Shown here: in pieces, positions 13,681 through 17,015 of the stretch
Layout: every line of letters begins with the position of its first letter
Numbering within the stretch: position 1 is the first letter of the stretch
Assembly (NCBI GenBank): GCA_937873795.1
Contig: CALMWE010000314.1
Coordinates: 1 to 37,400 of the forward strand
Origin: an uncultured Caryophanales bacterium
Lineage (GTDB): Bacteria > Bacillota_I > Bacilli_A > RFN20 > CAG-826
Direction: 5' to 3'
DNA length: 37,400 nt
Translations under genes and position numbers: made by a program
The notes under the pieces: model-generated
The model's input: the letters and a program-made list of their open reading frames with translations, nothing else
Database searches by the model: none
Told to the model about the DNA's origin: nothing

Positions 13681-13890
13681 AATAAAAAAGCGTTTCACCC
13701 TAAGGAACGAAGCGCTCGCGGTACCATCCTTATTCATTACAAAGTAATGCTCTTAATTAGGCCTTAACGCGGCAGACGGCGAGGATTAATCGCTCTCGGA
13801 AGTGGCACCTTACTTCGTTTCGGCCGTTTGCACCGGTAGGCCGTCTCTACAATAAACTTAGAAAGTTTAACTTCGTCATCGAATTGCTTC
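13681..13890 (-). ncRNA. T-box leader (riboswitch) of alaS
   Basis: Minus-strand AAGGATGGTACCGCG (13717-13731) matches the T-box antiterminator consensus; followed by a terminator-like AGCG...CGCTTTTTT; candidate Stem I helix AGACGGC/GCCGTCT followed by GCC (Ala) at 13771-13773; -10 TATAAT at 13892-13897. Confidence 0.92.
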
Positions 13891-13939: not shown

Positions 13940-13967
13940 TTGCATTTATCGGCGGGATTGGTATGAT
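13940..13967 (+). promoter_or_regulatory. Promoter of the Tyr-rich leader / ABC transporter operon
   Basis: TTGCAT (13940-13945), 16 nt spacer, TATGAT (13962-13967) with extended -10 TGG. Confidence 0.65.
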
Positions 13968-13996
13968 TTTCTTATCAATTAAAAGGAGGACGTCTC

Positions 13997-14080
13997 ATGA
14001 TTTACAGAACCAACATCAAGTCGTCGGCCTTTTATTATAGCTATTATTACTATCCCTCAAGATCGTTTCCGAAATCTTGA
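13997..14080 (+). CDS. Tyr-rich leader peptide (27 aa): MIYRTNIKSSAFYYSYYYYPSRSFPKS
   Basis: ATG at 13997 with SD AGGAGG at 13984-13989 (7 nt spacing); 7 Tyr codons, six within 14033-14053; TGA stop at 14078; followed by alternative RNA hairpins and a terminator. Confidence 0.82.
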   Translation: MIYRTNIKSSAFYYSYYYYPSRSFPKS

Positions 14081-14188
14081 CCTTTTAGTCATAATAGACA
14101 AAGGCTTTGGTGGAAACGATGAAACAATCGTGAACACCGAAAAGAAACAAGCATAAGGCTTCGGTGTTCGACACACCAAGCCTTTTTT
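14057..14188 (+). promoter_or_regulatory. Transcription attenuator (alternative hairpins plus intrinsic terminator) upstream of the ABC transporter operon
   Basis: Terminator AAGGCTT(C)GGTGT-TCGAC-ACACCAAGCCTT (14155-14184) plus U run; perfect competing pairing GAACACCGAA (14132-14141) with TTCGGTGTTC (14160-14169); further competing pairs upstream (see findings). Confidence 0.75.
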
Positions 14189-14218: not shown

Positions 14219-15280
14219 ATGAAAATGAAACATGTGGTCCTGTCCGCTGTCGCCCTGGCATCCCTGGCCGGTCTTGCTTCCTGCCAAAGTGATGTTCTAC
14301 AAATCGGAATTCTGCAATTTGTCACCCATGATGCTTTGGACGCCGCCAAAGACGGATTCGTCCAAGCGCTCGAAGACGCCGGGTTCGTCGATGGCGAAAA
14401 CATCGAAATCACCGTCTCTAATCCGCAAACCGACCCCACCATCATGGCCTCGGGTGCCGCTCAACTCGCACGGAAAAGCGATTTGATCTTGGCGATTGCC
14501 ACGCCGGCCGCGATTTCGGCCAAATCGGCAATTGAAGATGCGGGTAAAGAAACACCATTACTGTTTACCGCGGTCACCGATCCCGTTGCTTCAGGTCTGA
14601 TTGCTTCCCCCGAACTTCCCGGCGGATTCGTCACCGGGACCAACGATATGAACCCCGTTGCGGATCAAATCGCCTTGTTCGAAGAATTCCCCGGCATCGA
14701 AAAAATCGGGCTTTTGTACTCGTCCGCGGAAAGCAATTCGGTCATCCAAATCAACTTGGCCAAAGCTAAATGCGAAGCGCTCGGATTAGCGTTTGTCGAT
14801 CAACCGTTGACCGGCGATGAAGCCACGATTCAATCCACGATCAACCAACTCTTTGCGAATGAAAGTATTGATGGCGTCTACATTCCCACGGATAACTACT
14901 TAGCTTCGGCGATGACCTCGGTTTCCTCCAAAGCGATTGAAAAGGGTCTTCCTTTAATCGTCGGTGAAGCCGGACAAGTCACCAATGGCGGTTTCTTAAC
15001 CTTAGGCCTTTCCTACTTTACGTTAGGCGAGACCACCGGCGAAATGGCCGTGCAAATTCTTAAAGACGGCGTCGAACCGAAAGATATTCCTTCGACCGGT
15101 GCGTCGTCATTCCCGCTCGTGGTCAGCCAAGTGTTTGCCACAGCTGCCGGGATTACGATTCCCCAAAGTATCTTGGATAGAGCCGACACGATCATTACCG
15201 AGTCCTCGGAATCCTCCGCGGTTTCGCTGCCGTTGGTCGATGTCGATTTTCTTAAAAAAGCATCAGTAGCAAGCCGCTAG
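14219..15280 (+). CDS. ABC transporter substrate-binding lipoprotein (TrpX-like, ABC_sub_bind family)
   Basis: Signal with lipobox LAGLASC; VLQIGILQFVTHDALDAAKDGFVQALEDAGF..., IPTDNYLASAM; SD AAAGGAGG. Confidence 0.9.
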   Translation: MKMKHVVLSAVALASLAGLASCQSDVLQIGILQFVTHDALDAAKDGFVQALEDAGFVDGENIEITVSNPQTDPTIMASGAAQLARKSDLILAIATPAAISAKSAIEDAGKETPLLFTAVTDPVASGLIASPELPGGFVTGTNDMNPVADQIALFEEFPGIEKIGLLYSSAESNSVIQINLAKAKCEALGLAFVDQPLTGDEATIQSTINQLFANESIDGVYIPTDNYLASAMTSVSSKAIEKGLPLIVGEAGQVTNGGFLTLGLSYFTLGETTGEMAVQILKDGVEPKDIPSTGASSFPLVVSQVFATAAGITIPQSILDRADTIITESSESSAVSLPLVDVDFLKKASVASR

Positions 15281-15290
15281 GAGGCCTTTT

Positions 15291-16217
15291 ATGGATTTCA
15301 CTTTCATTGTCACGGACATGCTCGAACAAGGGCTCATATGGGCCATCTTGGCGTTAGGCGTGTTCATTGCTTACCGGGTTGAAGACATCGCGGACTTAGG
15401 CGCCGAGGGAGCCTTTCCTTTGGGTGCGGCGGTCACTGTTGTGTGCCTCAATGCCGGATTTCATCCCGTACTGGCCATCCTTCTAGCGGTCATCGCCGGT
15501 TCCTTGGCGGGTTTATTCACATCCTTACTTCATACCCTTCTTAAAATACCCCCATTACTTGCAGGGATTGTCACGATGGTTGGGCTCTATTCCGTTATTC
15601 TTCGTATTCTTGGAAAAGCCAATTTGGCGATCAGCAACTCCGCCACCACGGCGTTTGATTTTACGCAGACGCTCTTGGGCAATCGGTACTGGGGTATCGT
15701 CGTCACGATGGGCGTGGTCGTCATTGCTTTGTTCTTCGCGCTTTATTGGTTCTTCGGCACCGAAATTGGAATCAGCGTTCGGGCCACGGGAAAAAATAAG
15801 GCGATGGCCAAAGCGCAAGGCATCCATACCAGCGTGATGATCGTATTGGGACTCGTCATTTCGAACGCTTTAATCGCACTTTCGGGCAGTTTCTATGCGC
15901 AGCAGGCGGGATACGCCGATGTGGGCATGGGACGCGGAACGATCGTGGTCGGTTTAGCGGCCATCTTCCTAGGCGAAGCGGTCTTTGGAAAAAGGACCTT
16001 CAAAAATACGCTCATCAGCGTCATTTTGGGTGGGTTCATCTACTTCCTGATCATCGATGTGGCCTTGGAGCTTGATATGAATCCCAACGATTTAAAACTG
16101 CTTCAATCCGTGATTATCGTGTTGATGATTTCGTATCCGTTAATTCAAAAAAGCCTCAAAGAACCACTGGAAAAAGTCAAAAGTTGGTTCAAACGCGGAC
16201 GAAAGGAGGCGGTCTAA
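15291..16217 (+). CDS. ABC transporter permease (TrpY-like)
   Basis: Hydrophobic permease; DLGAEGAFPLGAAVTV, GLAAIFLGEAVFGKRTFKNTLISVILG. Confidence 0.88.
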   Translation: MDFTFIVTDMLEQGLIWAILALGVFIAYRVEDIADLGAEGAFPLGAAVTVVCLNAGFHPVLAILLAVIAGSLAGLFTSLLHTLLKIPPLLAGIVTMVGLYSVILRILGKANLAISNSATTAFDFTQTLLGNRYWGIVVTMGVVVIALFFALYWFFGTEIGISVRATGKNKAMAKAQGIHTSVMIVLGLVISNALIALSGSFYAQQAGYADVGMGRGTIVVGLAAIFLGEAVFGKRTFKNTLISVILGGFIYFLIIDVALELDMNPNDLKLLQSVIIVLMISYPLIQKSLKEPLEKVKSWFKRGRKEAV

Positions 16218-17015
16218 ATGCTTACCCTTTCGCACGTCAGCAAGACCTTTAAAGTCGATGATAACAAAGACAACGACCGCAAAGCACTCATTGACGTTTC
16301 CTTGGAAGTCGCCGAAGGCGAGTTCCTCACCGTCATCGGCGGGAACGGCTCGGGCAAGACGACGCTTCTCAACGTCATCGCCGGGGTGTTCATGAGCGAT
16401 GAGGGAAGCATCATCCTCAACGGCGTCAACCTTACGAAAGTCAAAGAACACCGCCGGGCCAAAGCCATCGGCCGCGTGTTCCAAGATCCGATGGTCGGCA
16501 CCGTTGCCGGCATGAGCGTCGAAGAAAACATGTCGTTAGCCCTACGGCGCGGCACAATCCCTTCGCTTCAATGGGGATTGACCGCCAAAAATCGTACCTT
16601 GTTTACCAACGAACTCAGCAAACTTCAATTAGGTTTAGAAAAACGTCTGTTTACGAAAGCCGGCTTGTTGTCGGGAGGGCAACGCCAAGCCCTGACGCTG
16701 GTGATGGCCACCTTGCGCCGTCCGGAACTCCTCCTTCTGGACGAACATACGGCGGCCTTGGATCCCAAAACGGCGAAAACGGTCATGGACCTGACCGAAC
16801 GCTTGATTCAAGAACAACATTTGACCGCGATCATGATCACCCATAACATGAAAGACGCGATCCGTTACGGAAATCGTTTGGTGATGATGAGCGAGGGTCG
16901 TATTATCTTGGACGTCAAAGGGGAAGAAAAAGCCAACTTGACGGTGGAAGAATTGATTCAAAAATTCCAAAGCGCCGGGGACGTCCTTCCCGATGACATG
17001 CTGCTGAGTAAATAA
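16218..17015 (+). CDS. ABC transporter ATP-binding protein (TrpZ-like)
   Basis: Walker A GGNGSGKTT, signature LSGGQRQALT, Walker B LLLLDEHTA. Confidence 0.93.
   Translation: MLTLSHVSKTFKVDDNKDNDRKALIDVSLEVAEGEFLTVIGGNGSGKTTLLNVIAGVFMSDEGSIILNGVNLTKVKEHRRAKAIGRVFQDPMVGTVAGMSVEENMSLALRRGTIPSLQWGLTAKNRTLFTNELSKLQLGLEKRLFTKAGLLSGGQRQALTLVMATLRRPELLLLDEHTAALDPKTAKTVMDLTERLIQEQHLTAIMITHNMKDAIRYGNRLVMMSEGRIILDVKGEEKANLTVEELIQKFQSAGDVLPDDMLLSK

Follow-up and report, generated by a model that had tools for sequence, protein, structure and literature searches.

The window analysed here, a 37,400-nt stretch of DNA from an uncultured Caryophanales bacterium, contains a leader that, judged from comparative sequence analysis, is very likely a his-like, ribosome-mediated transcription attenuator of an importer for tyrosine (perhaps phenylalanine). 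A short ORF with a Shine-Dalgarno (SD) sequence and a Tyr codon run, mutually exclusive antiterminator and terminator helices, and a predicted cognate importer are all present (Table 1). A preliminary description had already proposed ribosome-mediated attenuation, and this reading is supported by the conserved in-frame Tyr/Phe run, the terminator and the exclusive helices; the exchange of Tyr for Phe and the his-like helix chain are additions to it.

The unannotated 27-codon ORF was found at exactly the coordinates previously assigned to it, as were the AGGAGG motif 7 nt ahead of its ATG and the seven Tyr codons with their YYSYYYY core. The distance from the end of the ORF to the transporter start, earlier put at about 140 nt, is 138 nt. 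Folding predicted the leader RNA to be more stable than shuffled sequences (z = -5.0). A putative promoter precedes the ORF, with hexamers and spacing identical in a locus of the same genus, L002; a stricter consensus promoter scan of the window missed it.

Positions 13980-13995 can pair with 14019-14034, that is, the SD of the leader with codons just 5′ of the Tyr run, and L002 keeps this pairing by a compensatory change (TAAAAGG/CCTTTTA against TAATAGG/CCTATTA). Such a helix could occlude the SD behind the first ribosome. Many f1 leader ORFs (L009, L142, L159 and others, e.g., CAAGTAAAATTATG) have no SD and begin near an apparent -10 box, and these may be leaderless.

Table 1. Features of the leader and the importer operon in the window, and RF02863 matches overlapping leader ORFs at other loci.
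Feature	Position	Strand	Evidence and remarks
Putative promoter	13940-13967	+	TTGCAT, 16 nt, TATGAT
SD of leader ORF (AGGAGG)	13984-13989	+	sequence; also in L002
Leader peptide ORF	13997-14080	+	ATG start, 27 codons, 27 aa, MIYRTNIKSSAFYYSYYYYPSRSFPKS
Tyr codon run YYSYYYY, proposed stalling site	14033-14053	+	sequence; orthologous loci
Helix A:B	14058-14079 (14058-14063 with 14074-14079)	+	directly 3′ of the Tyr run; folding; -3.8 kcal/mol
Helix B:C, proposed ON state	14062-14120 (14062-14071 with 14111-14120)	+	repeat search, folding, relatives; -10.0 kcal/mol
Helix C:D, proposed OFF state	14106-14141 (14106-14112 with 14135-14141)	+	inner helix 14116-14120 with 14127-14131; -15.2 kcal/mol
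Helix D:E, putative antiterminator	14132-14169 (14132-14141 with 14160-14169)	+	relatives, covariation; -13.7 kcal/mol
Helix E:F, putative intrinsic terminator	14155-14188 (14155-14167 with 14173-14184)	+	one bulged base; T run 14183-14188; -14.9 kcal/mol
Substrate-binding lipoprotein (PF04392), predicted tyrosine binder	14219-15280	+	domain match; CD0873-type residues
Permease (PF02653)	15291-16217	+	domain match
ABC transporter ATPase (PF00005)	16218-17015	+	domain match
RF02863 match, L101	2290-2466		overlaps leader ORF
RF02863 match, L119	2238-2423		overlaps leader ORF
RF02863 match, L246	488-669		overlaps leader ORF
RF02863 match, L249	358-170		overlaps leader ORF
RF02863 match, L079	2208-2398		overlaps leader ORF

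The binding protein of the importer is present in 101 of the 281 genomes of the order, and 94 loci had enough upstream DNA for the leader test. A short ORF with a Tyr/Phe run was found ahead of the same transporter at 79 of them, compared with 0 in the antisense-strand control and a mean of 0.2 in dinucleotide shuffles. Because comparable ORFs are this frequent at orthologous loci and so rare in both controls, the comparison excludes a chance origin and indicates that the leader ORF is real. Examples of the leader peptides of relatives are MNRKNIIRTSAYYYSYYYYYRLKIVSQ (L002), MFKTLLNKIKSSFYYYFYYYFPSGIVITTLGVC (L004) and MKRAFYYFYSYYYPRGNQ (L142).

Of the 585 codons in the final nine positions of the runs, 343 were Tyr and 136 were Phe (479 together), and both TAT and TAC as well as both TTT and TTC were used in the core. 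Because nearest-neighbour leader comparisons yielded 52 Tyr-Phe exchanges against 42 synonymous changes, what the run conserves is aromatic codons; sensing may extend to Phe and need not be of Tyr alone. The preliminary description had suggested setting the conservation of Tyr codons against that of nucleotides in relatives, and it was the in-frame Tyr/Phe codons that were kept, while flanking and helix letters changed. This conservation extends beyond the order: about 22 of 60 loci fetched from the wider class have Tyr/Phe leaders (e.g., QFYYYYYFPRRCHV), and one locus each from Clostridium and Halobacteroidaceae (L074 and L123) also has a Tyr-rich leader.

The automatic leader test failed at 15 of the 94 loci. 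At three of these a leader was visible by eye (L194, L017 and L008, the last in a Trp form), and the remaining failures included six in one genus, g6, where transporter genes (L015, L148, L149, L158, L173 and L174) stand without a recognisable Tyr leader; the element was apparently lost in this lineage. On contig 12 of genome G054, the binding-protein gene is present twice in tandem (L008 and L017), once behind the Tyr leader TSYYYYRYCF and once behind the Trp leader MSSINWWRLSAGLLS, which is a natural specificity swap. A search of the 281 genomes for the Tyr-run pattern returned mostly low-complexity or coding matches, the reversed control being similarly frequent, and, transporter leaders aside, the 30 loci examined yielded no convincing Tyr leader on any other operon. 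An MYxYEYW ORF of family f14 was dropped as a candidate because, read by eye, it lies inside an apparent upstream coding region.

The same comparison bears on two readings that centre on the peptide. A nascent YYYY-rich peptide in the tunnel might sense free tyrosine and stall the ribosome, as TnaC does with tryptophan, and the recurrence of S or A before the run and of PR or R after it in many leaders would fit such a sensor. However, the leaders differ freely in length and at both termini, Tyr and Phe replace each other, a Trp-Trp version of the leader stands on a paralogue, and PR is alternatively explained by helix A (CCAAG), so that we consider sensing by the nascent peptide highly unlikely. 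A functional peptide, acting as a small protein that is secreted or serves in signalling, would account for a conserved small ORF, but the aromatic run alone is conserved, with the helix chain, the terminator and the same operon nearly always downstream of it, and the probability of this reading is negligible.

The his attenuator of enterobacteria comprises a His-codon leader whose stop codon lies over the first helices, six alternately pairing segments and an intrinsic terminator, and a ribosome covers about 12-13 nt past its A site. In the mechanism that we propose for the window, segments A to F would adopt two alternative sets of pairings, A:B, C:D and E:F (terminator) or B:C and D:E (antiterminator). 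If charged Tyr-tRNA is scarce, the ribosome would halt in the Tyr run and cover segment A at most, leaving B free; B:C and D:E would then form, and RNA polymerase would proceed into the importer genes. If tyrosine is plentiful, the ribosome would reach the stop codon and, because this codon lies in or beside segment B, would cover A and B; C:D and E:F would then form, and transcription would stop after approximately 210 nt. Measured from where segment B begins, the stop codon is at -6 to +17 nt in the majority of loci, and in nearly all it falls inside or beside this segment. We infer that the leader is translated and that ribosomes stall on it, and likewise which way the operon responds and in what order the RNA folds during transcription; the importer would be ON when Tyr-tRNA is uncharged, which is the expected sign.

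The terminator that belongs to the hallmark of such attenuation is present as a hairpin with a T run, accompanied by mutually exclusive alternative helices. Repeat search and folding revealed the window helices, which were then assigned by hand; the bulged terminator defeats the automatic chain search. In the window, the OFF pairing has an energy of -33.9 kcal/mol (-30.1 kcal/mol if A:B is left out) against -23.7 kcal/mol for the ON pairing, so that the less stable ON state would need co-transcriptional kinetics. Here, B:C overlaps with C:D mainly via the inner helix of the latter.

For the relatives, the chain search was run on 65 distinct leaders, the region from run to terminator being shuffled 60 times for each. 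The helix chain beat at least 57 of the 60 shuffles (≥95%; rank 3 or better) at 52 loci and all shuffles at 45. Helix order and overlap were constant across loci and the helix letters were not, as illustrated by the B:C arms GAGUGAUCAAUAAU/GUUGUUGAUUACUC (L157), AUUUUCCUAUCG/CGGUGGGAAAAU (L137) and GUUUCCUACUU/AGGUGGGAAAC (L136); the equivalents of B:C in relatives comprise 9-15 bp. Within the his-type six-segment scheme, B:C, C:D, D:E and E:F were thus above shuffles as a chain, and A:B as a class was not (17/65 loci); many relatives have a CCAAG/CTTGG-like helix at its position. In an alignable subgroup of 21 sequences, the proportion of paired cells was 96% for B:C, 92.5% for C:D, 90% for D:E and 99% for E:F. 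Covariation of B:C, D:E and E:F in this subgroup was above all 500 shuffles, and that of C:D was no greater than in shuffles.

We initially preferred a geometry in which B:C and C:D coexist as an H-type pseudoknot that constitutes the OFF state, and in which a ribosome stalled at the last Tyr codons covers B, dissolves the pseudoknot and frees D for E. A search demanding that B:C directly adjoin C:D agreed with this model in that 43 of the 65 loci beat all 60 shuffles. It was demoted by a test of the B:C/C:D overlap: the full B:C runs into the 5′ arm of C:D in most loci, which makes the two helices mutually exclusive, and segment B mostly begins 4-12 nt past the run, out of reach of an early-stalled ribosome. 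We therefore regard the pseudoknot as rather unlikely and prefer the his-like alternation.

Strong folding and covariation would also suit an RNA-only element, a riboswitch or T-box variant with an incidental ORF. To this we assign a very small probability, since Rfam gave no match on the plus strand and the in-frame Tyr run persists between families whose helix letters are wholly different. The T-box model (RF00230) had no match on the plus strand upstream of the importer, its only match being a minus-strand alaS T-box, and the Rfam His, Trp, Phe, Leu and Thr leader families gave no covariance-model match in the window leader. The alaS T-box (13700-13888, minus strand, Ala specifier GCC) lies back to back with the Tyr leader and scores 69.9 bits, below the Rfam gathering score of 93.

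The preferred attenuator reading implies a matching substrate for the operon. The operon had been called TrpXYZ-type, which holds for the family only: the substrate-binding protein scored 225.6 bits against the TrpX equivalog model, missing the cut-off of 390, and its nearest solved relative is CD0873 of C. difficile (PDB 6hni). Tyrosine binding by CD0873 has been demonstrated, and its specificity residues are Glu-263 and Tyr-279 (PMC6816091); E250 and Y266 of the window protein align with these. The Glu/Tyr pair also occurs in almost all of the Tyr-leader loci that were examined, L017 having Asp, and in 10 of 10 T-box loci examined. On the basis of these CD0873-like residues, we predict that the window operon encodes a tyrosine importer. 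Because no TyrA was found above the Pfam cut-off in the source genome (assembly approximately 93% complete), the organism is probably a Tyr auxotroph that must import tyrosine. For little-studied bacteria that are probably Tyr auxotrophs, the leader predicts which nutrient is under regulation.

Among known attenuators, that of the enterobacterial his operon (RF00514) shares the amino-acid-run ORF, the stop codon over the first helices, the six-segment alternation and the terminator; it differs in its His codons and biosynthesis operon, whereas the window has Tyr/Phe codons, a transporter and a host of the class Bacilli. The preliminary description had called a Tyr-codon leader unusual in Firmicutes and knew of no described example. 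This stands for the Tyr version, as no Tyr-codon leader attenuator, on a transporter or otherwise, was found in the full-text literature searched, a set mostly without subscription journals in which absence is not proof. It does not stand for leader attenuators as such, as predicted His-leader attenuators have been published for the Bacillus cereus group, Peptostreptococcaceae and Erysipelotrichales (PMC9413887). These belong to the same phylum, where T-boxes dominate, and are of the leader-peptide type as in the window, but they carry three to five His codons on his biosynthesis operons, and the Tyr version and this transporter lie outside that work. The uORFC-13-1 element of Acholeplasma aroF, with 24 sequences, is a uORF before a terminator that is predicted to attenuate the supply of aromatic amino acids (PMC8632094). 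Its aromatic codon or codons ahead of a terminator resemble the window leader; by its description, it differs in having at least one Phe codon from a U run, the aroF gene and no Tyr run described.

A second likeness concerns the Rfam family RF02863, 'Enterococcus sRNA 2410'. The E. faecium sRNA_2410 is 195 nt long and gave two transcripts on Northern blots (PMC5593968). We found RF02863 matches just 5′ of the same transporter in two Enterococcus species and at three other loci, where ORFs ending in RYYFSYFR, SYFFSYFR or NFYFSYFR(...) overlap the start of the match (core (Y/F)(Y/F)FSYFR). Class-wide, the family matched in four genomes, two of them with a match at the transporter, and a plasmid search with an Enterococcus leader matched one E. 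gallinarum plasmid, directly before the substrate-binding gene. RF02863 and the window leader both precede the same transporter and both have an aromatic leader ORF; RF02863 is, however, filed as an sRNA, has no match in the window leader region or the source genome, and the Enterococcus binding-site residue is Ser instead of the Glu of the window. From Enterococcus and other loci besides E. faecium, RF02863 is probably a leader-peptide attenuator and not a trans-acting sRNA, a reading that points to a possible role for this Rfam family.

The expected prevalence of T-boxes in Firmicutes was borne out, as many orthologous operons of other Bacillota carry Tyr or Phe T-boxes and tyrS of the source genome, one of 11 T-box loci there, has UAC (Tyr) at the specifier position. 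T-boxes were present at 16 of the 60 fetched loci of the wider class; ahead of the orthologous importer in other Bacillota, specifiers read off the Rfam alignment were UAC at six loci and UUC (Phe) at four. The trpXYZ operon of Streptococcus suis is under a Trp T-box (PMC9382623). We lean slightly towards the view that, across Bacillota, Tyr/Phe leader attenuators widely take the place of T-boxes at this importer, that the two were repeatedly exchanged in evolution while the sensed signal, charging of Tyr- or Phe-tRNA, remained unchanged, and that Enterococcus sRNA 2410 is the terminated transcript of one such leader. Depending on the lineage, the importer is preceded by a leader peptide with Tyr codons or by a T-box for Tyr or Phe, and one genome has both Tyr systems, the T-box on tyrS and the leader peptide on the importer; what makes lineages change between sensing by translation and direct sensing of tRNA thereby becomes directly testable. 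T-boxes, whether Tyr, Phe or the Trp T-box of S. suis, likewise respond to whether the cognate tRNA is charged, precede operons of the same transporter family and act on a terminator, but they bind the tRNA directly and without translation, whereas the window leader would sense charging through a translating ribosome.
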